From contig JAFGSY010000007.1 in assembly GCA_016934315.1 (NCBI GenBank), positions 1-64,000 on the forward strand: 64,000 nucleotides of DNA, written 5' to 3'. Shown here piece after piece: positions 4,774-61,132 of the stretch; position 1 is the first letter of the stretch, and each line of letters starts with the position of its first letter. Below the pieces are notes generated by a model. It worked only from the letters and a program-made list of their open reading frames with translations, was not told the DNA's origin and made no database searches. A program made the translations under genes and the position numbers. The DNA is from Candidatus Anaeroferrophillus wilburensis (GTDB lineage Bacteria; Desulfobacterota; Anaeroferrophillalia; Anaeroferrophillales; Anaeroferrophillaceae).

Positions 4774-5606
4774 AAGCCCCGGTAGATGCCAACATCACAC
4801 GGCGTGTTTGCAAGAATGCGCTCCAAAGGATGCCTATGGATAATCCTATGTGGTCGTGACCGCTCCGAGGCACCCAGGAGAATCATTCCCGCTTTCATTT
4901 TATTCGCCTGGACCATAATTTCACCGGGCCAATCGGCAGACAGGATGACCCGGCCGTCAATTTTAAACTCTGCCGTCGGGCAACCCTGGAGAATTTCGCT
5001 GATAATGGTTGCAACATAGGCATGCCCCTCGGCCCGGAGGGTCCGCAGCTGCACAGGGGTGAGATACGCCATCCAAAAACGGTGCACCGTCATAATCCGG
5101 ACAACGCACACCTCCGATACTTCAGGAAGAAACAGGCGGAAAAATGGCCAAGCTGAGTGAAACTTGCGGGGATGACCCGCTACCGGCAAAAGAAATGAAC
5201 ACGGATTTCCCAGCAGACCGGGCTGCACCACCCGGATTGCCAGAACATGGAAATGGCTGTCCCCCAACAGTTTTTCAGAAACTGTTCCGGCCAGGAAGCC
5301 CCGCCGGCCGCCGCGCATCCTGAGACCACAGACCAGCTGATTTTTTTTATCCGGCGGCACCACCTGCTGCAAGGTATGGAAGACATCCCCTCTGAGTGGA
5401 ACCTGCTGATAACTACTTTGCACCTGCCAGCGGGCGCAGGCCTCTCTGACATAGTCGACTTTACGACTGAGAAGATCAGCGGGCACCTCGGCATCAGCCA
5501 CGTTGATAATCAGCAGGGTTTTTTCGGCCGAGTGAACGGCAAAACGGATAGCGTATCGAGCAACCCAGTCGCCATTCAGTGAACCATCGTACGCAAAATA
5601 GATCAT
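4770..5606 (-). CDS. Tandem universal stress protein (UspA-like)
   Basis: A 278-residue protein with two UspA-like halves. The N-terminal half begins MIYFAYDGSLNGDW and contains a G-x-R-G-x-x-G-like nucleotide loop near residue 105. The C-terminal half (about 160-278) ends with LGASERSR...ILANTPCDVGIY, matching the usual Usp end. I chose the internal ATG at 5606 because GGGAG lies just upstream and the Usp fold starts there; an ATG six codons further out also exists. It is coupled by a 4-bp overlap to the P-type ATPase gene. Usp proteins fused or linked to transporters often gate them in response to ATP/ADP, so a regulatory role for the ATPase is plausible inference. Confidence 0.8.
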   Translation of the reverse strand: MIYFAYDGSLNGDWVARYAIRFAVHSAEKTLLIINVADAEVPADLLSRKVDYVREACARWQVQSSYQQVPLRGDVFHTLQQVVPPDKKNQLVCGLRMRGGRRGFLAGTVSEKLLGDSHFHVLAIRVVQPGLLGNPCSFLLPVAGHPRKFHSAWPFFRLFLPEVSEVCVVRIMTVHRFWMAYLTPVQLRTLRAEGHAYVATIISEILQGCPTAEFKIDGRVILSADWPGEIMVQANKMKAGMILLGASERSRPHRIIHRHPLERILANTPCDVGIYRGL

Positions 5607-33707: not shown

Positions 33708-34115
33708 ATGATGGAACCCCTATCAGCATTGGCTATTGACCAACAACTGCCAGACGTTGGCTTGGACGTATGGGGCATCGCCTCGGCAATTGATATTTAT
33801 GACTGCGATCCGGAAAAGATCCGTGACGCTGATTATATACGCACGTTTGTCGCCGAGCTTTGTGATTTTATTGAGATGAGGCGTTTTGGCGAGACGCAGG
33901 TGGTACATTTCGGCGAGGATGAAAAGGTAGCCGGCTACTCCATGGTTCAGCTGATCGAAACGTCACTGATCTCAGCACATTTTGCCAACCTGACCAATGC
34001 CACCTACCTTGATGTTTTCAGCTGCAAAGCATACGATCCGGAAGCGGTTCGCCACTTTTCACAGCAGTGGTTCGGGGGAAAATTCAGCACGCTCAACGTT
34101 ACCTTCAGGCGCTGA
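33708..34115 (+). CDS. S-adenosylmethionine decarboxylase (SpeD/SpeH) family proenzyme
   Basis: 135 residues matching small bacterial AdoMet decarboxylases: DIYDCDPEKIRD (29-40), GYSMVQLIETS (77-86), SAH (89-91) and DVFSCKAYDP (102-111). The pyruvoyl-forming Ser is S86, and the catalytic H91 and C106 are kept, so the proenzyme should self-cleave between T85 and S86. The family classically makes the aminopropyl donor for spermidine, but members without a nearby spermidine synthase include ornithine or arginine decarboxylases. No speE is in this window, so the substrate is open. AAGGAGGA precedes the start. Four tightly spaced genes follow in the same direction. Confidence 0.8.
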   Translation: MMEPLSALAIDQQLPDVGLDVWGIASAIDIYDCDPEKIRDADYIRTFVAELCDFIEMRRFGETQVVHFGEDEKVAGYSMVQLIETSLISAHFANLTNATYLDVFSCKAYDPEAVRHFSQQWFGGKFSTLNVTFRR

Positions 34116-34118
34116 GAG

Positions 34119-35084
34119 ATGATCAGCATACGAGCGACAAGCGACCTGGAGGAATGTCACCGGCTGTGGAAAAACCACTGGCCCCGGGAGTGCCTTTTTG
34201 ATCTCTGGCAACTCCGCACAGCTTTTTTGGCGCCTTTCGGGAGACAGCCATTTTTCCTGGTTGCCGAAGGCGGCGGAAAACCGCTCGGCTTGTTGGCGCT
34301 CAGCTGGATTGCGGAAAAGGGTTACTATGGTCATTTCCCCGGGGAACTCTGGAACGGCAAAACCTGGCTTGAACAGAACAAAATCATTGCCGCCTCACCA
34401 ACGGTCAGCTCAGCCCTGGTGGATGCTGTTCCGGGACCGGTGCATGTGCGCTATCTGCAGCCTGGCTACTGCAACCTGCCAGATCAACCGGTACAACATG
34501 ATGAAACCGGCTATCTTTTTTCCCCCGCTGATTTCAACTTCTCTTTCGCCACCTATCTGGCCCATTTTCCCGGCAAGACACGGCGGAAAATAGAGCGAGA
34601 AACCAGGGCAATCAACAGTCAGGGGGTTGTCATCAGCCATAACCAGCTTGCCGATGTGGAGAAGTTATTCACTCTCAACCTGGAGGCTTACAAAGAGTGG
34701 TCCTACTTTGCCGATGAACGGTTTGCCCGGGCTTTTGAAAACCTTGTTGCATGGCTCTGGGATCAGGGTCTTCTGCGCCTGACCTCTGTGCGCATTGGCG
34801 GTAAACTGGCGGCGGTTGACCTGGGAGCCGTCTGGCAGGGCACCTACACACTGCTGGCCGGTGGCACCAATGGCGCTTTCCCCGGGGTTGCCAAGGTGAT
34901 TAATCTCCACCATCTCGAATGGTCGTGTGCACAACGGATCAAGCTGGTGGATTTTCTGTGTGGAGACTTCAACTGGAAAGAACGTTTCCGCCTGACAGCC
35001 CGGCCATTGTATGCCTTCTCGAACATGCAGGCGATAGATGAGCCGCTGGACGGGCGAGAGGAGGAAATTGCCCATGCCTGCTGA
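34119..35084 (+). CDS. GNAT/FemAB-like acyl- or aminoacyl-transferase
   Basis: 321 residues with the two-lobed pattern of the GNAT superfamily's FemAB/BioF2-like branch (Acetyltransf_6). The central signature is KTRRKIERETR (about 148-158), followed by a second lobe with ADERFARAFENLVAWLWDQG (about 205-224) and AGGTNGAFPGVAKVINLHHLEW regions. FemX-type members transfer amino acids from aminoacyl-tRNA; others use acyl-CoA. It starts three bases after the AdoMet-decarboxylase-like gene and overlaps the ATP-grasp gene by 11 bases. Its substrate is probably a product of that pathway, but nothing in the sequence names it. Confidence 0.7.
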   Translation: MISIRATSDLEECHRLWKNHWPRECLFDLWQLRTAFLAPFGRQPFFLVAEGGGKPLGLLALSWIAEKGYYGHFPGELWNGKTWLEQNKIIAASPTVSSALVDAVPGPVHVRYLQPGYCNLPDQPVQHDETGYLFSPADFNFSFATYLAHFPGKTRRKIERETRAINSQGVVISHNQLADVEKLFTLNLEAYKEWSYFADERFARAFENLVAWLWDQGLLRLTSVRIGGKLAAVDLGAVWQGTYTLLAGGTNGAFPGVAKVINLHHLEWSCAQRIKLVDFLCGDFNWKERFRLTARPLYAFSNMQAIDEPLDGREEEIAHAC

Positions 35085-36342
35085 CCGCCAGGTCTGCGTT
35101 GTCGGCACGACCTCCGACTACATTGACTGGATCAGGCTGCACCACCCCGGTGAAGCCTTTTTTCTTACAGACCGGCTTCATCGCCTGCAGGCCAGGGAAG
35201 CAGCACCTGATGCGGCCGAAGAGTTGCTTTGCAATCTTGCCGACTACGAGGACGTGCGGCGGAGTCTACGGCAGCAGATCACCACCTACGGCTTGCACCT
35301 TGAGGGCATCGCCTGTTTCGACTGCGAGTCACTGGAGCTTGCCGCTCTGCTGGCAAAAGAGCATGGTTTCCCTTACGTTTCGCCCCACAGCATTGAAGTT
35401 TGTCGGGATAAATGGGCAACCAAAAAAATCTGGCAGCAACAGGGCATCCGCTGCCCGCTGGTCAACCAGGTTTCATCTGCCGCCGACATCGCCACATTTA
35501 TGGCAAACAAGGCCGGAGCATACGTCTTGAAGCCGCTTTCCGGCAGCGGCAGCGAGCTGGTTTTTCACTGCAGTGATATGGATCAGGGGAAACGGTGCCT
35601 GCAGATCATGCATGGGGCCTTGAGGAATAAGGCAACGCATCGTTTATATCGCGCAGGCCACAACGGTCCTGATACCATTGTCATTGAAGAATATATTGCG
35701 GGTCCTGAGTTCAGCGCTGACTTCCTGATTGACGAAGAAGGGGTTGAGATCATCCGGCTGACGGAAAAAAGCAAGGCCTCCCAAGCGCCGTTCGGCACCA
35801 TCCGGGGATACCGGCTGCTGTCCTCGCCGCCAGCGCCGGTCAGCATCGACAAGCTTTGCGGTATTTTTGCCCAGGCAGCCAGGGCCTTGGAGATTTCGCG
35901 GGCCATCTGCATGGTCGATTTCATCATCAGCAACGGCGAGATCGTCCTGCTGGAATTAACCCCGAGGCCGGGGGGAGACTGCCTGCCGGCGCTGCTTCGT
36001 GCAGCCAGCGGATTTGACATTTTGGGTTTCAGCCTGGCCTTTGCCAGGCACCAGACAATGCAACATCTTCCGCCTCACGATATGCCACCCATGGTCGGGA
36101 TTCGTTTGCTCGCCCACCGGAGCGGGATTGTCAAACAGATTAACGCTGAGCGCCTGGAGCGCGACCCCCGGGTGCGCGACCTCGCCATCATCCGTTCAGC
36201 CGGACATCGCATCTGCCTGCCGCCGGAAGATTATGATTCCTGGCTTCTCGGACACCTTGTTTTCATGCCGGCCGAGAAACCGGGATGGGTGGAACAAGGT
36301 CAGTCCATGGCCGACCAACTGACGGTTGAGATGGTTTCCTAA
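35074..36342 (+). CDS. ATP-grasp carboxylate-amine ligase
   Basis: 422 residues with an ATP-grasp core (about 100-330): KPLSGSGSELVF as the phosphate-binding loop, VIEEYIAGPEFSADF as the hinge, and DFIISNGEIVLLELTPRPGGD for Mg2+ ligation. It is closest in look to the PurK/BL00235-like amino-acid ligases that join a carboxylate to an amine at ATP cost. The ATG at 35074 has AGGAGG about nine bases upstream, inside the previous gene. With the decarboxylases on both sides, it may form an amide on an amino acid or polyamine. The actual substrates are unknown. Confidence 0.78.
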   Translation: MPADRQVCVVGTTSDYIDWIRLHHPGEAFFLTDRLHRLQAREAAPDAAEELLCNLADYEDVRRSLRQQITTYGLHLEGIACFDCESLELAALLAKEHGFPYVSPHSIEVCRDKWATKKIWQQQGIRCPLVNQVSSAADIATFMANKAGAYVLKPLSGSGSELVFHCSDMDQGKRCLQIMHGALRNKATHRLYRAGHNGPDTIVIEEYIAGPEFSADFLIDEEGVEIIRLTEKSKASQAPFGTIRGYRLLSSPPAPVSIDKLCGIFAQAARALEISRAICMVDFIISNGEIVLLELTPRPGGDCLPALLRAASGFDILGFSLAFARHQTMQHLPPHDMPPMVGIRLLAHRSGIVKQINAERLERDPRVRDLAIIRSAGHRICLPPEDYDSWLLGHLVFMPAEKPGWVEQGQSMADQLTVEMVS

Positions 36343-36361
36343 AGACTGGATGATAGCAGCC

Positions 36362-37654
36362 ATGAACGAGTACATCTGCCCCTCGGGGGAGTTAGCAGAA
36401 ACTATTCCCCACCTGCCGCAGGCGGAGGTCAAGAGCTATTGCGCCCGTTATTTCAGACACCGCGAGCTGTATCTTGAGAAAGCCAAACAGGCCAATGGCG
36501 CTTGTTACCTGCTTGACCGCCCTGCCCTCAAAGAAAGGGCCCAGCAATTCCAGACCACCTTCTCATCGGTCTTGCCGCATGTCGCCAGTTATTATGCGGT
36601 GAAAAGCAATAACTATCCGGAAATCGCCAGAACGATGCTGTACATGGGATTCGGCTTGGATGTCTCCAGCGGCAGCGAGCTGCAGATGGCCCTGGAACTC
36701 AATGCCAGCGACATTGTCTTCAGCGGACCCGGCAAAACCGAAGCTGAGTTGGCGCTGGCAGTTACCAATACCAGCCGGACGACCATCCTCATTGACAGTT
36801 TTGGTGAGCTTGAACGGCTTGAAAAGATCGCTGCCGAGATGGGGCAAAAGATTCGTGCCGGTGTCCGCCTGACAACCATGAACAACGGTCTGTGGCACAA
36901 ATTCGGCATCCTCCCTGAGACACTGCCCGCTTTTTGGGAAAAGGCTTCCGCTTGCCGGCATATTCAGTTACAGGGGCTGCAGTTTCATACCAGCTGGAAC
37001 CTTTCACCGACAAACCAATGCACTTTCATAAAAGCTCTGAAGATGATACTCTGTCGCATGTCGCCCAGGTTTCTTGAGCATTTGCAGTTCATCGATGTCG
37101 GCGGCGGCTACTGGCCGGAGACGGGTGAGTGGCTGCAGGAGGGCGGCACCAAAAATGGCAGCATCCGCAAGGCATGGGGCGAGGAAGTCAATGCGGCCCA
37201 CCGCTATTACCGGTTGCCGGCCGCCGGGCTGGATGTTTTCGCTGAAGATCTGGGGCAACTGATTACTGCCGAACTGCTGCCCTTGGTCAAACATTGCCGC
37301 ATCTGCTTTGAACCTGGCCGGTGGCTCTGCCATGATGCCATGCACCTGCTGCTGCAGGTGGTGGACAAGAAGGCCGAAGATCTGGTGATTACCGACGCCG
37401 GCACCAATGCCATCGGCTGGGAACGCTTTGAAAGTGATTATTTCCCGGTTCTCAACCTCTCTCGGCCAGCCCTGGTGGAAAAACCCTGCCATATCCTCGG
37501 TTCTCTGTGCACCCCCCATGATGTCTGGGGATACGCCTACTGGGGAGAGGGGATTGAGAGCGGCGATATTCTGATGATTCCCACACAAGGTGCCTACACC
37601 TACAGTCTGCGGCAACATTTCATCAAGCCGCTGCCGCCGGTTCTAGCCATCTGA
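36362..37654 (+). CDS. PLP-dependent amino-acid decarboxylase, alanine-racemase fold
   Basis: 430 residues of the type III (Orn/Lys/DAP decarboxylase 2) family. PLP-binding Lys is in YYAVKSN (K81). Other family marks are FGLDVSSGSELQ, FEPGRWL, LCTPHDVWG (the catalytic Cys-x3-Asp segment) and GAYTYS near the C-terminus. The specificity segment differs from textbook diaminopimelate or ornithine decarboxylases, so the substrate could be a ligated or carboxy-polyamine. The start is uncertain: ATGs at 36326, 36350 and 36362 have no good ribosome site, and I chose the last as nearest to the conserved part. It ends the cluster. Confidence 0.78.
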   Translation: MNEYICPSGELAETIPHLPQAEVKSYCARYFRHRELYLEKAKQANGACYLLDRPALKERAQQFQTTFSSVLPHVASYYAVKSNNYPEIARTMLYMGFGLDVSSGSELQMALELNASDIVFSGPGKTEAELALAVTNTSRTTILIDSFGELERLEKIAAEMGQKIRAGVRLTTMNNGLWHKFGILPETLPAFWEKASACRHIQLQGLQFHTSWNLSPTNQCTFIKALKMILCRMSPRFLEHLQFIDVGGGYWPETGEWLQEGGTKNGSIRKAWGEEVNAAHRYYRLPAAGLDVFAEDLGQLITAELLPLVKHCRICFEPGRWLCHDAMHLLLQVVDKKAEDLVITDAGTNAIGWERFESDYFPVLNLSRPALVEKPCHILGSLCTPHDVWGYAYWGEGIESGDILMIPTQGAYTYSLRQHFIKPLPPVLAI

Positions 37655-37704
37655 AGTGAAGCTGTTCTGCATAAAACAAACATAGAATATTTCACGAATG
37701 CCTG

Positions 37705-38262
37705 ATGAACACATGTACCATAGTTCCTGTAGATTTTCTTGATCCCGGTTCGGTGGCCTTCTGGACGCGCATCGGCATGGCATTGGTTTGCGGGGCGATT
37801 GTCGGTTTTGAAAGACAGCTGAGGGGAAAACCGGCGGGCATCAGGACCTGCATCCTGATCTGTCTCGGCACCTGTGTGTTCGTAGGCCTGAGCGCCTGCT
37901 ATCCTGATCAGGATATTGACCCGACAAGAGTAGTTGGGCAGATTGTCACCGGTGTTGGTTTTCTGGGTGCCGGTGTTATCATTGCCAAGGAAGGGGCGGT
38001 TACCGGTGTAACAACGGCGGCAATCATCTGGATGCTGGCCGGGGTCGGAGCCACTATTGGCGTCGGCCGCCTGCAGGCTGCTCTGAGTGTAACCATCGTG
38101 ACCGTTGCGGTCCTGCTTGGGGTCGAGTTTCTCGAAACAACGTTTCGTAGGCTTCGCCGCGGTGTTCATGCCCGCAGACCGTTGGCAAAGGATGAACATC
38201 ATGGGCAGACAGATGGCACCAACCGGCAACAACTGATGATCGACGGGGATAGATTTTCATGA
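37705..38262 (+). CDS. MgtC/SapB-family membrane protein
   Basis: 185 residues. The MgtC signature is clear: GAIVGFERQLRGKPAGIRT (about 31-49), then GVGFLGAGVII and the TTAAIIWMLAGVGATIG helix. About five membrane helices are followed by a short hydrophilic tail (about 150-185). MgtC proteins help cells at low Mg2+ by acting on the F-type ATP synthase; homologues in other bacteria may do otherwise. No Mg2+ transporter or leader is beside it. The ribosome site is weak. Confidence 0.87.
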   Translation: MNTCTIVPVDFLDPGSVAFWTRIGMALVCGAIVGFERQLRGKPAGIRTCILICLGTCVFVGLSACYPDQDIDPTRVVGQIVTGVGFLGAGVIIAKEGAVTGVTTAAIIWMLAGVGATIGVGRLQAALSVTIVTVAVLLGVEFLETTFRRLRRGVHARRPLAKDEHHGQTDGTNRQQLMIDGDRFS

Positions 38263-38299
38263 ACTATTCATCCATACAGCTTTTGAAGGAGAAACAGCG

Positions 38300-39460
38300 A
38301 TGATGCAGGAGAAAGATACTGGCAGCCCTGCAGGGAGCAGAGGTCGTGGTGGTCTGGCAGATATTGCCGTCTGCACTTCCGAAATCTGCTTTATCGACGG
38401 CAATGAAGGCCGCCTCATCTATCGCGGTTATGATGTAGGTGACCTCGCTGAGCACAGCACCTTTGAAGAAGTTGCCTATCTGCTCTGGTACGGGTGTCTG
38501 CCGCGCCGGACTGAGTACCGGGCATTTCTTGACGGCTTTACCGGCTCCATGACCTTACCGGTGGAAACCATCATGATTCTGCGGATGTTTCCCAAGGCGG
38601 CAACGCCGATGGAAGTCTTGCGGACCGCGGTTTCCTCCCTGGGTCATTGGGACCCGGATAGCGGCAACACGGGGCTGGACGCCTGCCTCCGTAAAGCCCA
38701 GCGCCTGACGGAGAGAATACCCTTACTGATCGCCGCCCATCAGCGACTGCGCGAAGGCCTTGAACCGGTCAGGCCGCTCGCCGGCAAAAGTATCGCGTAT
38801 AATTTTCTCTACGCCCTCCGCGCTGAGGAGCCTAAACCTGAGATGGTCCGGGCACTCGATGCCGCCTTGATTCTGCATGCCGACCATGAACTGAACGCAT
38901 CAACCTTTGCCGCCCGGATCACCGCGGCCACCATGGCCGACCTCTACTCTTCGGTAACCAGTGCGATTGGCACCCTCAAGGGGCCTTTGCATGGCGGCGC
39001 CAATGCCGAAGTGATGAAGATGATCGAGGAGATCGGCACGCCGGAAAAGGCGGAAGCGTGGGTTCTGGCGCAGCTGGCGGCAAAAAATAAAATTCCCGGT
39101 TTCGGGCACCGGGTCTACCGCTGTGAGGATCCGCGAGCCGGCATTTTACGCCAGCATGCCAAAAAGGTGGCCAAACTGGCGGGAGACCGGCGTTTGTTTG
39201 ACATAACCCTGGAAGTTGAGCGAGTGATGCTGGCCAACACCACGCTCTTCCCCAACGTCGACCTCTATACCGCATCATTGTATCACGCCATGGGCATCCC
39301 GGTCGATCTTTTCACGCCCATATTTGCCATGAGCCGGGTTGTCGGTTGGACGTCGCACATTTTTGAACAGTGGGGCAATAACCGTCTGATCCGTCCGCGG
39401 GCCGACTATGTCGGCCCCAAAAAACTAAAGTATGTTCCCATCAAGGATCGTCTCACCTGA
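38300..39460 (+). CDS. gltA: Citrate synthase
   Basis: 386 residues, matching the short type I bacterial/archaeal citrate (or 2-methylcitrate) synthases. Catalytic histidines are in GPLHGGAN (near 230) and GFGHRVY (near 270), and the LHADHELNAST segment is present. It joins acetyl-CoA and oxaloacetate. 2-Methylcitrate synthase activity cannot be excluded by eye, but no propionate genes are near. AAGGAG precedes two adjacent ATG codons. It is convergent with the lysine-aminomutase-type gene. Confidence 0.92.
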   Translation: MMQEKDTGSPAGSRGRGGLADIAVCTSEICFIDGNEGRLIYRGYDVGDLAEHSTFEEVAYLLWYGCLPRRTEYRAFLDGFTGSMTLPVETIMILRMFPKAATPMEVLRTAVSSLGHWDPDSGNTGLDACLRKAQRLTERIPLLIAAHQRLREGLEPVRPLAGKSIAYNFLYALRAEEPKPEMVRALDAALILHADHELNASTFAARITAATMADLYSSVTSAIGTLKGPLHGGANAEVMKMIEEIGTPEKAEAWVLAQLAAKNKIPGFGHRVYRCEDPRAGILRQHAKKVAKLAGDRRLFDITLEVERVMLANTTLFPNVDLYTASLYHAMGIPVDLFTPIFAMSRVVGWTSHIFEQWGNNRLIRPRADYVGPKKLKYVPIKDRLT

Positions 39461-39535
39461 TCTTCTGGTGTTGAGGTTCCTTGGTTCATTGTCTTATCTG
39501 ACTGCCAATAGCTGTCAAAATCCAACCACCGTCGG

Positions 39536-40627
39536 CTACAAACAACAACCATTGGCCACCCGGCGCTTTTCCTCTTCAAAGATCGGTGCCGGGTTGGCAT
39601 AGGCATAAAGCCGGCCCTGGTAATTTTTGAGAACCACCTGTTCCCCGAGGCTCTGGAGATAATCGGGCAGAAGCGGAATTTTGCCACCGCCACCGGGGGC
39701 GTCGATGACATAGGCCGGCACCCCCATTCCCGAAGTGTGACCCCGCAGGGCGCGGATGATTTCAATTCCCTCCTCGACGCTGGTACGGAAGTGGTCGGTC
39801 CCCTGCACCATGTCGGCCTGGTAAAGATAGTAGGGTTTCACCCGGATGGCCAGCAGCTTCTGCATCAGCCGCTTCATGACCTCCGGATCATCATTGACCC
39901 CCCGCATAAGCACCGTCTGATTCCCCAGCGGGATACCCGCATCGGCCAGCCTTGCACAAGCCTTCGTCGAGATTTCAGTAATTTCATCCGGATGGTTGAA
40001 GTGGGTATTAATATAGAGCGGGTGGTAGCGACGCAGGATGCGCGCCAGCGCCGGGGTAATCCGCTGGGGCAGCACCACAGGGACCCGGGTGCCGATGCGG
40101 ATAATTTCCACACTGGGGATCGCCCTCAACTCCGTGAGAATCCATTCCAGACGCTCGTCACCCAACAGCAGAGGGTCGCCACCGGAAAGGATGACGTCAC
40201 GGATCTCTGGATGGCTGCGGATATAGGCAATCCCCACCTCGAGGGTCTGGCGGTCAATTACCATGTGCGCACCGCCAACCTTGCGCTTGCGGGTACAGAA
40301 ACGGCAGTACATGGCACACTCAGAGGAAACCAGAAACAGCACCCGATCCGGATAGCGGTGCACCAGGTTGGGAACCGGGCTCTGGTTCTCTTCTTCAAGG
40401 GGATCGACCATGCAGACTGAATCATGCAGTTCCTCCTCGGCGGGAACCGCCTGTTTCCAGATCGGGTCACCAACCGACTTGATCAGACTGAGATAATAGG
40501 GATTGACCCGCATCGGATAACGTTCGGCCACCTCCTCAAGGGGACGTGGGTCGACACCGAAAGGCAGGATCAACTCACCGGGACTGGTAATGCTCGCCTG
40601 CAACAGTTTCTGCCAGGTTTCCATCAT
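39536..40627 (-). CDS. kamA: Lysine 2,3-aminomutase family radical SAM enzyme
   Basis: 363 residues. The radical SAM motif is C-x3-C-x2-C (C104, C108, C111). The PLP Lys is in the DAPGGGGK motif (K316). The two Asp residues that hold the side-chain amine of lysine in the Clostridium enzyme are kept (D272 in YQADM, D309 in VIDAPG), which favours lysine over glutamate as substrate. It would form beta-lysine. It is shorter than the 416-residue clostridial enzyme, as in many proteobacteria. The ATG at 40627 has GGGAG upstream; an ATG six codons earlier also exists. It follows two ATP-grasp ligase genes on the same strand. EpmB-type action on elongation factor P cannot be excluded. Confidence 0.87.
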   Translation of the reverse strand: MMETWQKLLQASITSPGELILPFGVDPRPLEEVAERYPMRVNPYYLSLIKSVGDPIWKQAVPAEEELHDSVCMVDPLEEENQSPVPNLVHRYPDRVLFLVSSECAMYCRFCTRKRKVGGAHMVIDRQTLEVGIAYIRSHPEIRDVILSGGDPLLLGDERLEWILTELRAIPSVEIIRIGTRVPVVLPQRITPALARILRRYHPLYINTHFNHPDEITEISTKACARLADAGIPLGNQTVLMRGVNDDPEVMKRLMQKLLAIRVKPYYLYQADMVQGTDHFRTSVEEGIEIIRALRGHTSGMGVPAYVIDAPGGGGKIPLLPDYLQSLGEQVVLKNYQGRLYAYANPAPIFEEEKRRVANGCCL

Positions 40628-40802
40628 GCTCCGTTCTCCCTGCATACCAAAAAATGCTGGTCATTCATACTTCGTTCATCGCCAGAGTTCTGGCAGATCA
40701 AAGGTTTGTACAGCTGCACCATAAACCGGCACAGGTTTCCATCATCAACTACTCTCCCCGGTTGCCACCCCAGGAATATGGCTGGTGGGTTGATCGCTCG
40801 GG

Positions 40803-41822
40803 TTATGGTGCAGCACGGGCGAACACCCGGCGTTTCAGCGCCAAAGAAAGAAGCCGCTCGATTAGCTTGGGATAACTGATGCCGGCGGCAGCGGCGCTGC
40901 GGGCCAGACCGGCATCAGGTGAAAGGTCAGGATTTGCGTTGATCTCGAGGATGTAAGGCACGCCGGCGCGCAAGCGGATATCGACCCTGGCATAATCACG
41001 GCAATCCAGCAACTTGCAGGCATGCAGGGCGGCATCCTGCACCAGCAGCGTTTCACCGGCGGCAAGCAGCGCCGGGCAGACCGGTTGGGTCTGGCTATAC
41101 TCCGGTGAATTCTCCAGCCATTTGCCCTCATAGCTGACGATGGCATTCGTGAGACCAGCTTTGAAGACGATCTCGGAAAGGGGCAGCGCCACCATCGGCG
41201 CATTGCCGACGACGGCGGCATTAAGCTCGCGGCCACCGATGAACTCCTCTACCAAAGCATCCTGATGGTAAGTATCGTGGACATAGGCTATCCGCCTGGG
41301 CAGAGACTGCTCATCGTCAACAATGCTGTCACCGGTAATTCCCAGGGAGGCATCCTCGAAGCGGGGCTTGACGATAAGTGGATAGGCGAGATCCCTGGTC
41401 CCCGGGGAAAAAAGCCCCCCTTGGCGCACCAGCACGTAGCCGGGCGTCGGCAGACCGTGGGTCCGCAGGATATCTTTGGTGAGAACTTTATCCTGGGTGA
41501 GGCCGAGACAGAAAGGTGCAGCACCAGTATGGGCAACACCAAGCAGATCAAGCAGGGCAGCCACGTGCATTTCCTTGCGGCTGTCACCCCAAAAACCTTC
41601 ACAGAGGTTGAAGACGACTTCGGTGCTGGACGTGCGCAGTTCCTTGACAAAAGCAAGCAGGTCCGCACCCAACGGAACCAGACTGGCGTCATGCCCAAGC
41701 TGGTGCAAAGCGTCCCTGACCGCGCAGGCCTCCTTTTCAGCACCTTCCTCGGAAATCCGGTCAAGAAGCTCGCCTTTGAGCAGGAGGGGGGGAGCCTGGT
41801 TAAAGCATATGGCGATATGCAT
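40803..41822 (-). CDS. D-alanine-D-alanine-ligase-like ATP-grasp enzyme (second of pair)
   Basis: 339 residues. The N-terminal lobe has VFNLCEGFWGDSRKE, typical of Ddl-like proteins. The ATP-grasp core shows YPLIVKPRFEDASLGI, ALVEEFIGGRELNAAV and RVDIRLRAGVPYILEINANPDLSP, keeping the Mg2+-binding Glu and Asn. It should ligate a carboxylate to an amine, but does not look like the housekeeping Ddl, and no cell-wall genes are near. It overlaps the upstream ATP-grasp gene by 23 bases, so the two are probably made together. Beta-lysine from the neighbouring aminomutase is a candidate substrate, by inference. Confidence 0.82.
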   Translation of the reverse strand: MHIAICFNQAPPLLLKGELLDRISEEGAEKEACAVRDALHQLGHDASLVPLGADLLAFVKELRTSSTEVVFNLCEGFWGDSRKEMHVAALLDLLGVAHTGAAPFCLGLTQDKVLTKDILRTHGLPTPGYVLVRQGGLFSPGTRDLAYPLIVKPRFEDASLGITGDSIVDDEQSLPRRIAYVHDTYHQDALVEEFIGGRELNAAVVGNAPMVALPLSEIVFKAGLTNAIVSYEGKWLENSPEYSQTQPVCPALLAAGETLLVQDAALHACKLLDCRDYARVDIRLRAGVPYILEINANPDLSPDAGLARSAAAAGISYPKLIERLLSLALKRRVFARAAP

Positions 41823-42861
41823 CGTGACCCCCCTGGAACAGATTGCGACGCCGGCTTGCTGCGTCGACCACCGCCAGAATCATCTGCTCGTAGGACAGCC
41901 CCGCAGCCCGGGCCGCCTTGGGAAAGCAGCTGTTCTGCTCGGGGAGCGGCAGGATGCCGGGAAGTGGATTCAGTTCAATGATGTTCGGCCGACCATGGCC
42001 GTCGAGCCGTACATCGATGCGGCACCAGTCGCGACAGCCCATGGCGGTAAAAGCCCGCCGGCAGATATCTTCAATCCTCTGCTGCAGCAGGGGTTCGAGA
42101 GACGCCGGACAGGCAAAGATCTGCAGAGGGTCCTCTTCCCGATCCCAGAGCCACTTGGCTTCATAGGAATAGATTTGGTTAACCCCTGCAGGGAGGGTAT
42201 GAAAATTGATTTCAACGACGGGCAGTACCCGCAGTCCGGCACCGTTACCCAGCAGGGCCACCGTAAACTCCCGGCCAGGAAGAAACTCTTCCACCAGGAC
42301 CGGCTGGTGGTAGGTTTCCAGCACCCATTCGATCTGCCGCGCCAGAGCCTTGCGGTCATGCACTAAAGCTCGGTCTGTTACGCCCTTGCTGGAGCCTTCA
42401 AGGGTTGGCTTGACCATGAGCGGGTAGCGGAGCCGAAAGGAGAGTTCGGCCATCGATGAAACCACCGCAAAGCGCGGGGTTGGAATGCGATGGTAACTGA
42501 GGATCTCCTTGGTACGCCGTTTGTCAAGACAGTTGCCTAAGGTAACCGGATCGCTACCGGTATAGGGAATCCCTAGCATATCCAGCAGGGCGGGAATCTG
42601 GGCTTCACGGCTGGCGCCGTTTAAACCTTCCGCAATATTGAAGACCAGATCAGGTCTCAGCTCACGATAGATTTCAAAGGCATTCAGATCGGCATTAACC
42701 AGGGTGACCTGATGACGGGATGCCAGAGCTGACTCCACGGCCTTGATGGTGCGGAGGTCATCCCATTCGGCATAGAGATCGGTAGGAGGACGACTGGGAG
42801 GCTCTGCTTCTGCCTCACAGACGGGCTCCTCCCGCAAATTGTGGGAAAGCGCAATATTCAT
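41800..42861 (-). CDS. D-alanine-D-alanine-ligase-like ATP-grasp enzyme (first of pair)
   Basis: 353 residues, similar in plan to its downstream neighbour but clearly diverged. Motifs include LVFNIAEGLNGASREAQ, YPLMVKPTLEGSSKGV, VLVEEFLPGREFTVAL and RIDVRLDGHGRPNIIELNPLPG. A short acidic, Pro-rich insert lies after the first strand (about 15-28). The ATG at 42861 has AAAAGGGG upstream and replaces a slightly longer open frame. Tandem, overlapping Ddl-like genes suggest two successive ligations or a heteromer. The leader region ahead of it contains a Lys/Arg mini-ORF. Confidence 0.82.
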   Translation of the reverse strand: MNIALSHNLREEPVCEAEAEPPSRPPTDLYAEWDDLRTIKAVESALASRHQVTLVNADLNAFEIYRELRPDLVFNIAEGLNGASREAQIPALLDMLGIPYTGSDPVTLGNCLDKRRTKEILSYHRIPTPRFAVVSSMAELSFRLRYPLMVKPTLEGSSKGVTDRALVHDRKALARQIEWVLETYHQPVLVEEFLPGREFTVALLGNGAGLRVLPVVEINFHTLPAGVNQIYSYEAKWLWDREEDPLQIFACPASLEPLLQQRIEDICRRAFTAMGCRDWCRIDVRLDGHGRPNIIELNPLPGILPLPEQNSCFPKAARAAGLSYEQMILAVVDAASRRRNLFQGGHDAYRHML

Positions 42862-42966
42862 CTCATAACCCCTTTTAAAAGCCTTGAGCAAATCCAGTCC
42901 CCCAAGGGGGAATCGGAAGGCATTCTCCAGACCCGGATGCCTGGGGCGTGCGGCTATAAAAAGGGG

Positions 42967-42993
42967 TTACTTTTTACGCTTCGTCTTACGCAT
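42967..42993 (-). CDS. Possible leader peptide MRKTKRKK
   Basis: A nine-codon frame (M-R-K-T-K-R-K-K-stop) lies in the 275-base gap between the amidohydrolase fusion and the first ATP-grasp gene, on the transcript of the latter. Four of eight residues are Lys and two Arg. A GGCAT/ATGCC hairpin lies between it and the ATP-grasp gene. It could act in translation-dependent attenuation sensing lysine or arginine, but the ribosome site is poor (GGAG 18 bases upstream). Speculative. Confidence 0.2.
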   Translation of the reverse strand: MRKTKRKK

Positions 42994-43136
42994 GTCCGGG
43001 TCGTATACTACTCCGATTTTCTCGCCCTTTACACACCTTTATCAGGCTTGTCAACCAAGAAATGCAGCTGCATAAATCGAACATCCGGACAGTTGAAATA
43101 CACTCAAGAAAATTGTCCAAACCCTAAGGAAAACCT

Positions 43137-45398
43137 TTAGGTTTTCACAAGGTACTTACAGTAAACCACCTTGCCGTCACCGGGGGCATAAAAATCGGGG
43201 AAGACATTATGCGGTTCATAACCACCCTGTTCATAGAAGGAACGGGTGCTGGCATACTGCAGACGCTGGGAAGTATCAACATAGATGCGCTCACCGCCGG
43301 CACTCCTGATATTTTTTTCGGCCTGCTGCAGGAGAATCTTGCCTAGACCCCTGCCTTGGTAGTCGGGATGTACGGCTATCCAATACAGGTCGTAGCCGCT
43401 CAGGGTGCAGGGTATGGGACCGTAGCAGACATAGGCAACAAGCCGGCCATAATGTTCAGCCATGATGAAGCGGTAGCCGCTGGCTTCACCTTTTTCCAGC
43501 CTCTCTTTGACCAGTTCCACCGCTACCGCCACCTCCTCAGCAGAAAAAAAGCCGGTCACGGCCACCAGCTTGGCCACCCTTTCCAGGTCGGCCTCTTCCA
43601 TCTCCAGCCGGTAAGTTATCCCCTGAATACTGCTTTTTACCGGCTGGTGGCTGGCAGATGACCATTGCTGGGCAGCCGAGGCAAGACCTTTGAAAAAATG
43701 CAACGCATTAAGACCGAGGGTGCGGGTGCGGTAACCGCCCTCCTGAACCACAACCATGGGCAGACCAAGGGCACCAAGCAGTTTACCGTTTTCCTCAAAA
43801 TCTTTGGCCGCCAGGCTCCAGGTCCCGGTGGGATCACCTTTAGCCGGGTCAAGACCTAGGGCGACCACGACAAAAGCAGGCTTAAACGTTTCAATTCTGT
43901 CAAGGGCACCGGTCAATACCTTGCGGAATGCAGAGCCATCAACACTCTCCGGCAAAGGCAGGTTAAGGTTAAACCCATCGCCTTCACCTTCACCGCATTC
44001 CTCAGCAAAACCACTGAAATAGGGATAAGCAAAACTCGGATGGCCATGAATGGAAATGGTGAGGACATCGTCGCGCCGGTAAAAAATCTCCTGGGTGCCA
44101 TTGCCATGATGGTAATCAAGATCGAGCACCACGGTCTTGCCGTAGCCGCTCAGGTAATGAGCCGCAACCGCACTGTTGTTGAAATAGCAGAAGCCGCCGA
44201 ATACCCGGCTTTCGGCATGATGACCCGGAGGCCGGACGAGGGCATAGGCTATCCGCCGGCCGTTGAGCACCTCGCCAGCGGCAGTCAAGGCGCAATCCAC
44301 CGCCCGGCGCGCCGCAGGGTAGGCATTGCGGTTGATAGGGGTAAAGGTATCGATGCAATAGTAGCCGGCAAGCACCGACGGCTCCTTTGGGGGCCGGGTC
44401 TTGTTGCGGATCGGGAAGATATAGGGATAGAGGGACTTCCCCTCCGGCATCCCGGCACAGGCACGCTTCAGATAATGAACCAGATCGGGGGCATGTACCG
44501 GGTAAAGATAGCGATCGGCAAACGACCGCGGCTGTATCTGGACGAATAGGCCACTCTTATCCAACTTTCTGAGGATAGACTGGACGCGCACCGGCGACTC
44601 AACATAACCTCGATCACGGACATGGTGGATATCATGGCGGTCGTTCACCACCACGGCAATCTGCTCGGTGATCCGGTTTCCGACCCCGCGGGCTGCCAGT
44701 TCCGGCTTCACATAAGTAAACGGGCGCAGCTCTACCGGATCGTCCCGGAACGAGGCAACAACCTTTTCCACATACTCCGGCGGGCAAAGATCGGCGTATT
44801 TACGTTCGAGCACGGCCCGGACCACCTTGCGGGCGAAAGTACGGCCAGGCTGTTTACCCCCATCAAGACCGTCGTATACCAGATGGGGCATGCAGGTATC
44901 GCCGGCATTTATGGGCGCCTCATAGGCCGTATTGATAATGGGCCGGGCGCCGTACTGTTCATAAAAACGCAGCCTGGCACGGTTTTCCTGCAACAACGTC
45001 TGATCAGGACACAACTGCTCAACATCCGGCAAACACTCGAAGAAAAGCCCTTTCACCTTCAGGGCAACAGACTCCTGGCGCACCCTTTCGTACAAGGCGC
45101 TGCCGATGCCGGAACCAGCACGTTTGGCAGTTATGGCAATCCAGTCAAGGTAGGTAAAACCCAGGGTCGGGTCATGGAGGAGAATGGCAAAACCATTGAC
45201 ACGACCCTTGGCGTTATCCGCCACAAAAAGAATCGTGCGAAACCGCTGCTTAAAAGGATTGCGCAATCTTTCGCCAATGGATTCAATCTCCTTTTCATCT
45301 GCGGCACTGAACCTGGTGCGCAAAATCTCCTTTACCTGGCGAAGCTCTTCTCTGTTGATCGGCAGTGCATCATCGTAGATGCGACGAATGCGCAGCAT
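43137..45398 (-). CDS. GNAT / acetylpolyamine amidohydrolase / GNAT fusion protein
   Basis: 753 residues in three domains. Residues 1-175 are a GNAT acetyltransferase (acetyl-CoA loop KRAGSGIG, 92-99). Residues 245-575 are a class II histone-deacetylase-like domain closest to bacterial acetylpolyamine amidohydrolase. Its zinc ligands D428, H430 and D517, catalytic H393-H394 (PGHHAES) and Y556 (EGGY) are all present. Residues 590-753 are a second GNAT with QGRGLG (681-686). One chain can thus both add and remove acetyl groups, presumably on an amine such as a polyamine or beta-lysine. AGGAGAG precedes the ATG. A mismatch-containing hairpin overlaps the stop codon. Neighbours are the ATP-grasp pair and the lysine 2,3-aminomutase. 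Confidence 0.88.
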   Translation of the reverse strand: MLRIRRIYDDALPINREELRQVKEILRTRFSAADEKEIESIGERLRNPFKQRFRTILFVADNAKGRVNGFAILLHDPTLGFTYLDWIAITAKRAGSGIGSALYERVRQESVALKVKGLFFECLPDVEQLCPDQTLLQENRARLRFYEQYGARPIINTAYEAPINAGDTCMPHLVYDGLDGGKQPGRTFARKVVRAVLERKYADLCPPEYVEKVVASFRDDPVELRPFTYVKPELAARGVGNRITEQIAVVVNDRHDIHHVRDRGYVESPVRVQSILRKLDKSGLFVQIQPRSFADRYLYPVHAPDLVHYLKRACAGMPEGKSLYPYIFPIRNKTRPPKEPSVLAGYYCIDTFTPINRNAYPAARRAVDCALTAAGEVLNGRRIAYALVRPPGHHAESRVFGGFCYFNNSAVAAHYLSGYGKTVVLDLDYHHGNGTQEIFYRRDDVLTISIHGHPSFAYPYFSGFAEECGEGEGDGFNLNLPLPESVDGSAFRKVLTGALDRIETFKPAFVVVALGLDPAKGDPTGTWSLAAKDFEENGKLLGALGLPMVVVQEGGYRTRTLGLNALHFFKGLASAAQQWSSASHQPVKSSIQGITYRLEMEEADLERVAKLVAVTGFFSAEEVAVAVELVKERLEKGEASGYRFIMAEHYGRLVAYVCYGPIPCTLSGYDLYWIAVHPDYQGRGLGKILLQQAEKNIRSAGGERIYVDTSQRLQYASTRSFYEQGGYEPHNVFPDFYAPGDGKVVYCKYLVKT

Positions 45399-58572: not shown

Positions 58573-59178
58573 TTAATGATCAACCTCTTCCCACCCGGTA
58601 ATCATCGCCTTGATGTATGATAGGAGGGTGCCTCCGGTGGTGCTCATATAGATATGCACGACCAGGAAAGCTACCAAAACAAAGGCCGTCAGGGTATGGA
58701 TCAGGGCCACCGGCCGGAGGCTGCCATTGAAGAGGCCACCAGCCGGTAATTCATTGTAAAAATAGTACCATAAGCCGCTGAGAAACTGGACCGGCAGAAT
58801 TATAACTTTCAGTTTCAGATAGACCAGCCGCTGCAGGGGATTCAATTTCTGCTTCCGGGTCTTCCGGTGGGGATGTGTTTCCCCTTTGAAAATTCCCACG
58901 AGGTAGTAGCGGATCACCTGGACAAGGTTGTCCATGGTGGGCATGTACTGGCGCCATTCACCAGTGGTCAGATGCCAGAAGATGGCAAACACGGTCAGCC
59001 CAAGGACAAGCCAGGCAGCATACAGGTGGACCATGTGGGCTCTGGCAAACCCCATCAAGGTAAACAGGCCATGAATTTCAAAACCGGTTGCCAGCAGAAG
59101 AAAAATCAGGATCGATTGCAACCAGTGCCAGAAACGCTCAAAACGGGCATAGAGATGTATTTTTTTCTTCATGCTCAT
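58573..59178 (-). CDS. Membrane cytochrome b (b561-type) redox partner
   Basis: 201 residues with four membrane helices and conserved histidines (ERFWHWLQ, FARAHMVHLYAAW, IHTLTAF, VVHIYMS) typical of di-heme cytochrome b subunits of formate dehydrogenases, hydrogenases and similar enzymes. It overlaps the octaheme cytochrome gene by 4 bases. It probably passes electrons from the quinone pool to that cytochrome, or the reverse. The octaheme protein has its own C-terminal helix, so the two likely form a membrane complex. Confidence 0.85.
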   Translation of the reverse strand: MSMKKKIHLYARFERFWHWLQSILIFLLLATGFEIHGLFTLMGFARAHMVHLYAAWLVLGLTVFAIFWHLTTGEWRQYMPTMDNLVQVIRYYLVGIFKGETHPHRKTRKQKLNPLQRLVYLKLKVIILPVQFLSGLWYYFYNELPAGGLFNGSLRPVALIHTLTAFVLVAFLVVHIYMSTTGGTLLSYIKAMITGWEEVDH

Positions 59179-60794
59179 TGCTCCTCTCGCCGGCGGCGCA
59201 GAATTCTCATGGTCCCGTGGGCGATCACGCCAGCGAGGCTGAGGAGTACCAGCACCACGCCCAGGAGATCCAGGACGGTAGATTTATCCCGACCGGGAAG
59301 ATAGAAGCCGCCCAAGCTGGCCAGGCGGCCTTCGCGACGGTGGCAGTCGGCACACGGGAGGGATTCCTCCTTGGGGGCAACCATATGGGTAATGGGCCAG
59401 AACATTTCCGTTTCAACGAAACCGATCTGACCGCTGAAAGCGGCCTGGGCTTCCGCCATCCCTGCTTTGACCGATTGTTCCCAGTCATAGTCAGCCCAGT
59501 AGGCGCCGCTGCCTTTCTTACCGAAGAGCTTGGGAATTGCCAGGGTCTTGTTCACCGGATCATACACCTGTTTCCCCCGGTAAAATTTAAACGGGAAAAT
59601 TCGCGCCCCAGGATCATCATAGCTTCCCTGGGGCTGATTCAACCGCACTGGTTGTTGATCATCTATGACATCAAGCAAATCAACATACTTCATGTTGCCG
59701 TTATACCAGACATAGGTTGGCACCACATCTTTCGCCCAGCGCATATCTCCCTTTTTGCTGTGATAGGTGACATTCCCGGCCCCATCTTTCTCCACCACCA
59801 CGTTGCCTTCGGCATCAAAGCGGCCGGCCGTCGACCAGTCCCACCACATTTTGGTATATACACCGCCACGGGCATAGCGGGGAATATGGCAGGTCTGGCA
59901 GGCCACTTTGTCCGTATGATCGTTGAGTTTTTTATTTTTTTTATGGGGAGTGGCACTGTGACAGGATTCACAGGCCATGCGATTGCCATAATCATCGGGC
60001 AGTGCCAACTGACGTCTTACCGGCGCCGGCGTCGCATAGTAGCGGCCGGCAATATCATGGTTAATCGTGGTATGGCAGGCGGTGCAGTTAAACTTTCCCC
60101 CTTTGGCCGCCATATGAACATCGAGCCGTTTATCGGCTTTCAGCAACGATGAATCAAGATCTCCGTGTTTGACACCGTCACCGCCACCACCGTAAAAATG
60201 ACAAGCGCCGCAGTTCTCTCCCCTTGGCCGCCCCACCAGCTGGGCAACCTCAGAAAGATTCACCGGCTTGAAGACCCTGGCGCCGAACTTCTTCTCTTCA
60301 TAGGCCGGGTGACCGCAATCGGTGGGATATTTTTCATAGGTGCCGGTGGTATCGTGGCAGACCAGACAATCAACATTTTCTTCAATGGTAAAATCAAAAT
60401 GCCTGTCTTTCCACCCATATCCTGCATGGCAGCTGGTGCACCTGCACCAGTTGGATATCGGGGTAATTCAGAAGCTGTTGAGGGTGTACGCCTTGCCAAA
60501 AGCCTGCTGTTCCTGACCTTTTTTCTTGCCCCAGGTCCAGTGGATGGTGTGCTGCACCTGCTTGGCTGCTTCCGTATGGCAGCCTAGACAGGCTCTGGTG
60601 ACCTCCGGGCCCCGCTTGAATTCTTCTTTCAACTGCTTGAATTTCCGGTGATCTGCCGTTGGCAGAGGAACTTTTTTCAACAGCTCATTACCGCCAGGCG
60701 GGGGATCGGAAAGCTCCTGCGCCACCACCATCATTGGCAAACTGAACAGCGGTAAAGCCATAACAATAAAAAGAAGAAACGTTCTTTTTTTCAT
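59175..60794 (-). CDS. Octaheme tetrathionate-reductase-family cytochrome c with in-frame UGA (candidate Sec109)
   Basis: 540 codons in one frame broken only by a TGA at 60468-60470; 539 residues if it is read as selenocysteine. A signal peptide (1-25) and eight CxxCH heme sites are present (first C69-H73, then CTSCH, CLVCH, CGACH, CTACH, CESCH, CQTCH, CADCH). A C-terminal helix (about 505-525) anchors it. The UGA falls in LNSF-U-I, just before CTSCHAGYGW, where family members usually have Cys (NNFCI). A hairpin begins 17 bases later. Relatives reduce tetrathionate, nitrite or hydroxylamine. The start overlaps arsR (ATGA). If the UGA were a true stop, this would be a pseudogene; the intact frame on both sides argues against that. 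Confidence 0.85.
60433..60450 (-). promoter_or_regulatory. Bacterial SECIS-like hairpin in the octaheme cytochrome gene
   Basis: On the - strand CTGGTGC-AGGT-GCACCAG forms a perfect 7-bp stem with a four-base AGGU loop. It begins 17 bases after the UGA codon. A GGU loop on a GC-rich stem at this distance fits the known SelB-binding element of E. coli (loop GGUCU). The hairpin spans the codons for the second heme site, so part of the pairing could be coincidental. Confidence 0.7.
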
Positions 60795-61132
60795 CTCAAT
60801 GACCCCCGTTTTTTGAGTTCTTCAAGCAAGCCTTCCCGCACCGCCTGAATCCCCAGCAGAAACTTCTGGTTGGCAATCCGATAATAGATGGTTCTCCCAT
60901 CCCGCCGGGTAGCGACCGCCCCCTGGTCGCGCATCAGACGGAGATGCTGGGAAACATTAGCGAGCGAAATATCCAATCCCGCGGCCAGCTGCGTTACCGT
61001 CTTTTCCCCGTCACCCAGCAAATCCATAATCTGCAGGCGAATTGGCGAGGAAAAGATGGTGCAGAATGATGCGTGCAGTTGAAAAACATCGATGCCGATC
61101 ACTGTCTCTGCTTTGATGCCTGCCTGATTCAT
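60791..61132 (-). CDS. ArsR-family transcriptional regulator
   Basis: 113 residues with the winged-helix core IRLQIMDLLGDGEKTVTQLAAGLDISLANVSQHLRLMRDQGAV (about 33-75, cited as a region) and the wing TRRDGRTIYYRI. The usual metal-binding ELCVCDL motif is missing and a single Cys is near residue 24, so it probably senses redox or a sulfur species rather than metal. It is first in an operon with the octaheme cytochrome and cytochrome b, with an ATGA overlap. It likely controls its own operon through the inverted repeat upstream. Confidence 0.87.
   Translation of the reverse strand: MNQAGIKAETVIGIDVFQLHASFCTIFSSPIRLQIMDLLGDGEKTVTQLAAGLDISLANVSQHLRLMRDQGAVATRRDGRTIYYRIANQKFLLGIQAVREGLLEELKKRGSLR

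Follow-up and report, generated by a model that had tools for sequence, protein, structure and literature searches.

Our analysis points to a selenocysteine (Sec) residue beside the catalytic heme of an octaheme tetrathionate reductase (OTR). Within the stretch of 64,000 nucleotides that was analysed (hereafter the window), we identified an otr-like gene interrupted by a single in-frame UGA. With a probability of about 0.96, as judged from sequence, this gene encodes a full-length OTR-family octaheme cytochrome that is exported and anchored to the membrane, and its UGA 109 would be translated as Sec by means of SelB, tRNA-Sec and a SECIS element. Taken as a whole, with Sec at position 109, its placement at the active site and the electron path and chemistry proposed below, this reading is in our judgement very likely the best explanation of the locus.

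The sequence-only reading had joined two open reading frames of the same phase through one TGA, and this was borne out: the frames 60794-60468 and 60263-59175 on the minus strand share a common frame with one TGA (codon 109) between them and form a single gene of 539 codons. The gene terminates at the TGA at 59177-59175, before which there is no stop except codon 109. The eight CXXCH motifs and the C-terminal helix described in the same reading were likewise recovered, the motifs being counted at residues 69, 119, 143, 195, 237, 275, 299 and 481 and the helix being predicted at residues 506-538. Its sequence and predicted helix make the N-terminal segment a probable signal peptide, and the modelled C-terminal helix is probably a membrane anchor. 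Standard gene callers report such a gene as two pieces, a 108-aa fragment and a headless cytochrome. Because they break the gene at the UGA, Sec-containing OTRs have likely gone unnoticed or been wrongly annotated in many of the phylum's genomes. Coordinates of all features are given in the table.

Table. Positions of the otr-like gene, its putative functional sites and its neighbours in the window.
Feature	Position	Strand	Details
otr-like gene, probable Sec at codon 109	59175..60794	-	539 codons; octaheme c-type cytochrome, tetrathionate reductase family
In-frame TGA, codon 109, probably read as Sec	60468..60470	-	opposite Cys64 of Shewanella OTR
Probable N-terminal signal peptide	60720..60794	-	sequence MKKRTFLLFIVMALPLFSLPMMVVA; predicted helix 2-16
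Predicted C-terminal helix 506-538	59181..59279	-	structure model, pLDDT about 87-97; hydrophobic sequence
bSECIS hairpin CUGGUGC-AGGU-GCACCAG	60433..60450	-	7 bp, 4-nt loop with GG, 24 nt after UGA
Cys117, extra Cys	60444..60446	-	29/32 UGA genes, 0 Cys genes; coded by the SECIS 5' arm
Heme II attachment motif C119-TSC-H123	60426..60440	-	first codons form the last SECIS loop base and the 3' arm
Lys209, opposite K153 of 1sp3	60168..60170	-	K in 32/32 UGA and 114/114 Cys genes
Cytochrome b561-type membrane subunit (PF01292)	58573..59178	-	ATGA overlap with otr
ArsR-family regulator, single Cys (C24)	60791..61132	-	ATGA overlap with otr

For homology searches the product was used with Cys written in for TGA 109. 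It scored 622 bits against the TIGR04315 profile (cut-off 375), covering all 440/440 profile positions, and 238 bits against PF11783; a phmmer search of the PDB returned 1sp3, the Shewanella OTR, as its sole match (394 bits). An AlphaFold2 model built from 50 relatives reached a mean pLDDT of 85.8, and Foldseek matched the predicted fold to 1sp3 with a TMt of 0.88. The Cys64 typical of the family is absent as such, the aligned codon being the TGA. The profile-based assignment to TIGR04315 is not in doubt, since Sec corresponds to Cys with selenium in place of sulfur and the score lies far above the cut-off. Residues C64, N61 and K153 of 1sp3 align with U109, N106 and K209, respectively (the number of Cys64 is a residue count along the printed 1sp3 alignment). 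In UGA and Cys forms alike, N106 and K209 do not vary and the eight heme motifs hardly do, and codon 109 lies ten residues ahead of the heme II motif C119-H123. K153 of 1sp3 is said to have been described by Mowat et al. in 2004 as a ligand of heme II, with Cys64 adjoining that site. Heme II is the catalytic heme in OTR (PMC4484225). As shown by alignment and predicted fold, the putative Sec109 stands in for the Cys of the active-site region at the Lys-ligated catalytic heme II.

A scan of genome contigs yielded 80 relatives, to which order- and phylum-wide searches added more; after removal of duplicates, counts were made on 147 loci. Column 109 is TGA in 32 of these, TGC or TGT in 114 and TGG in one, so that UGA or Cys occupies it in 146 of 147. 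Both an alignment asking whether the UGA column is Cys in relatives and a search of related genomes for UGA/Cys pairs, suggested in the sequence-only reading, therefore came out in its favour, and its expectation that relatives read NNFCI was right (NNFCV in Shewanella, NNFCI or NNYCL in others). Within the window's order, 17 of 18 matching genomes, the window's included, carry one TGA with other stops absent (56-100% identity), and the 18th holds a C-terminal fragment only, which begins past the TGA site. Chance is excluded, as protein-level conservation of the part behind the TGA extends over many genomes. An in-frame TAG found in one relative (L139) 429 codons past the site marks the C-terminal end and was taken as an ordinary stop.

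A single stop within a draft genome of 52 contigs might be suspected of being an error of sequencing or assembly, or the nonsense mutation of a pseudogene. We give this next to no probability, as 32 genes, from many genomes, have the TGA at this codon and lack other internal stops, protein identity is 41-71% over a stretch spanning both sides of it, and the SECIS codons are constrained. Decoding of the TGA as Trp or another standard amino acid, be it by reassignment, a suppressor or plain read-through, is scarcely credible either. It is favoured by one homologue, L083 from Chromatiaceae, in which the codon at 5235 is TGG; it is opposed by Cys at this column in 114 relatives, by the use of TGA as terminal stop of the same gene, by a complete Sec machinery with a UCA-anticodon tRNA scored as tRNA-SeC, and by the restriction of the SECIS to UGA genes. 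The L083 gene is apparently intact and has a cytochrome b neighbour. Since it has Trp at column 109, a chalcogen at this position is, on sequence evidence, not absolutely required.

The machinery for Sec insertion, which the sequence-only reading had proposed to look for as selA, selB, selC and selD, is present in the window's genome, a draft of 52 contigs and 98% completeness. We detected selA (601.8 bits), selB (397.9 bits), selD, which itself has an in-frame UGA at SGUAAK, and a tRNA-Sec with anticodon UCA (70.5 bits). Elsewhere in this genome, a formate-dehydrogenase-like (fdhA-like) molybdoenzyme gene (L173, G000:C6:17622-18350) has an in-frame UGA in RLUH (HCARLUHSST) and by its sequence likely encodes a further Sec enzyme. 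Across the phylum, tRNA-Sec scored over the cut-off in 55 of 59 genomes tested, whether their OTR was of the UGA or the Cys form. Because nearly all genomes of both kinds have it, its presence within the phylum is necessary and not discriminating for UGA-OTR. For two UGA-bearing draft genomes (G003 and G017), tRNA-Sec was not clearly above the background of other tRNAs.

Another check proposed in the sequence-only reading, a search for a SECIS element, was made with a published bacterial model and was positive for the window's gene. This bSECIS model (PMC13188914) calls for a loop of 3-9 nt with a G in its first two bases, located 16-37 nt after the UGA, and a minimum free energy (MFE) of -7.5 kcal/mol or lower. 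The window's hairpin lies at 24 nt, has the loop AGGU and folds at -12.0 kcal/mol. Hairpins conforming to the model were present in 32 of 32 UGA genes and, at the same position, in 0 of 115 non-UGA genes, sequences that are related and hence not independent trials. Three of the UGA genes sit exactly at the -7.5 kcal/mol limit, and elsewhere in the same genes about 6.5% of codon positions conform by chance. Codons +8 to +13 (AAC UGG UGC AGG UGC ACC; N-W-C-R-C-T) each use one codon in 92-100% of the 25 clade-I genes, compared with a mean of 58% for other conserved residues of these genes; synonymous sites of the SECIS codons thus appear almost frozen in the window's clade. Covariation in the stem is little, and support there consists of invariance and the match to the model. 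Folding z-scores are weak for some UGA genes (-0.7 to -3.6), because the 3' arm lies in ordinary heme codons. A scan of the 64-kb window with Rfam gave no match above gathering scores, which is neutral toward the SECIS. What decides the SECIS case is the model test with its Cys-homologue control together with the codon conservation.

Two types of SECIS were identified. The commoner type 1 (CUGGUGC-AGGU-GCACCAG, 24 nt) uses codons of the heme II motif as its 3' arm, and type 2 (GCAACGA-GGC-UCGUUGC, 20 nt) occurs in the loci L130, L133 and L134. At the place of the type 2 element, the Cys-type OTR L166 has a 7-bp hairpin of -6.7 kcal/mol (codons after 1699, minus orientation), which might be a relic of a lost Sec codon but is likely due to chance. 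Type 1 also accounts for the extra Cys117, since it forces Trp-Cys at the two codons before Arg/Ser-Cys119. The presence of Cys117 in 29 of 32 UGA genes and its absence from every Cys gene might suggest that Sec is its redox or structural partner (a selenenylsulfide), or a heme ligand switch, and not a nucleophile attacking the substrate. We regard this as unlikely, given that the SECIS 5' arm encodes Cys117 (UGG-UGC pairs with GCA-CCA) and so explains it without function, and that three group II UGA genes are without Cys117.

A tree from which the alignment columns surrounding the UGA and SECIS had been left out placed UGA genes in three places, implying at least four changes. Group I comprises 25 rows including the window's gene, group II three rows among Cys genes, and group III four rows of a distant paralogous clade. 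Groups I and II as one clade were rejected (p-AU 5.8e-5, for a grouping chosen by the trait and a quick tree). As far as the sequences tell, Sec and Cys have, in whichever direction, been exchanged several times across the phylum, because UGA occurs in three groups. Four loci of the distant OTR paralogue clade (L135, L136, L137 and L138; 41-42% identity) have the UGA and a type 1 SECIS and are without a cytochrome b neighbour. Distant-clade UGA-OTRs stand beside other OTR copies in G339, G199 and G151. Three UGA groups and two SECIS types make the family a useful case for the study of Sec/Cys exchange.

The otr-like gene is part of a gene order arsR-otr-cytochrome b, in which the arsR stop and otr start, and the otr stop and cytochrome b start, each overlap as ATGA. 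A cytochrome b gene follows otr in 28 of 28 UGA genes of groups I and II and in 0 of 4 of group III. Leaving aside the clade to which group III and Malonomonas belong, it follows most Cys genes too. In 17 of 25 cases, a group I gene is preceded by an ArsR regulator that has only one Cys; this C24 (in HASFCTIFSS) is conserved among orthologues beside Sec-otr, and the regulator is possibly a thiol or persulfide sensor. The ATGA overlaps, the position of the UGA early in the gene and the Sec genes found beside Cys paralogues in some genomes (G151, G339) might also indicate that the main role of an inserted Sec is regulatory, selenium supply gating the full OTR and, by way of the ATGA overlap, cytochrome b, with a 108-aa monoheme fragment made otherwise. 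This seems quite improbable to us: the UGA lies exactly at the conserved Cys near the catalytic heme, a placement that gating by itself does not call for, and the use of two SECIS types for one codon suggests selection on the residue itself. A search of the window's genome for dsrA, as a tie to sulfur respiration, did not find it. Elsewhere in the window, positions 33708-45398 encode an AdoMet decarboxylase, three ATP-grasp proteins, an Orn/DAP/Arg-type PLP decarboxylase, a lysine 2,3-aminomutase-like radical SAM protein and a fused histone-deacetylase-like and GNAT protein, and look like a polyamine or acetylated amino acid pathway.

For a catalytic Sec109 we propose the following course. The protein would be exported by its N-terminal signal and anchored in the membrane by its C-terminal helix, and electrons would pass from the quinol pool via the partner cytochrome b to the octaheme chain. 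At heme II, the selenolate of Sec109 might act as nucleophile and attack the S-S bond of tetrathionate, another polythionate or polysulfide, forming a Se-S adduct from which it would be set free by reduction through heme II, much as happens with the Cys of TsdA. That enzyme's Cys-thiosulfonate intermediate is a precedent for a chalcogen-sulfur adduct at a heme (PMC5146829). By this analogy the selenolate chemistry is put forward tentatively, at a little under even odds. The same site could instead reduce nitrite or hydroxylamine; tetrathionate, nitrite and hydroxylamine are all substrates that Shewanella OTR can reduce in vitro (PMC4484225, PMC4911364). Compared with Cys, Sec might make the step faster or less prone to irreversible oxidation. 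With slightly less confidence, we suggest that a widespread respiratory octaheme enzyme, coupled to the membrane, uses selenium as its catalytic atom at the Lys-ligated heme II. In this enzyme Sec would have been gained or replaced by Cys repeatedly, with two SECIS types, and Cys117 may be a resolving thiol. A respiratory enzyme would then have selenium adjacent to its catalytic c-type heme, and because the structure of the Cys form is solved and a laboratory host for it exists, selenium and sulfur could be compared directly at one site.

The sequence-only reading had proposed Sec in place of an active-site-region Cys and, as a candidate, a new selenoprotein. The former is strongly supported by the machinery, the Cys column and the SECIS, but a new selenoprotein family is not supported, because a May 2026 review (PMC13188914) already lists TIGR04315 as Sec-containing. 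Its Table 1 names a "Tetrathionate reductase family octaheme c-type cytochrome" with one Sec (WP_331457571.1, motif "-", GenBank annotated). Sharing family and number of Sec residues, this is, compared by its listing entry, almost certainly the same selenoprotein as the window's. The listing is without motif, Sec position, SECIS, distribution and function, all of which except motif and function are given here. A full-text literature search, mostly without subscription papers and preprints, returned no other paper linking octaheme, tetrathionate reductase and selenoprotein; the active-site position, the SECIS on heme II codons, the distribution and the operon were not found published within the literature searched.

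Among other known systems, ExtKL (NF040886) of Geobacter is also a c-type multiheme cytochrome with one predicted Sec (PMC5877670) but belongs to a different family, as NF040886 had no match to the otr product at E 0.001. TsdA, a diheme thiosulfate dehydrogenase/tetrathionate reductase, resembles the proposed model in having a chalcogen at the active-site heme and a covalent sulfur adduct (PMC5146829); it is a distinct diheme protein type, of which the window's otr is not a member, and its Cys is a heme ligand. Thermosulfurimonas dismutans, by the description in PMC4911364, has a similar pair of an octaheme OTR and an adjacent membrane cytochrome b gene (TDIS_1882/1883), for which Sec is not mentioned in that paper. 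The Shewanella oneidensis OTR (1sp3) shares the eight CXXCH hemes, the Lys (K153/K209), the Asn (Asn61/N106) and the fold. The window's protein differs from it by the probable Sec in place of Cys64, the extra Cys117, the predicted C-terminal membrane helix and the adjacent cytochrome b gene, whereas Shewanella OTR receives its electrons from a soluble small tetraheme cytochrome (PMC4484225).
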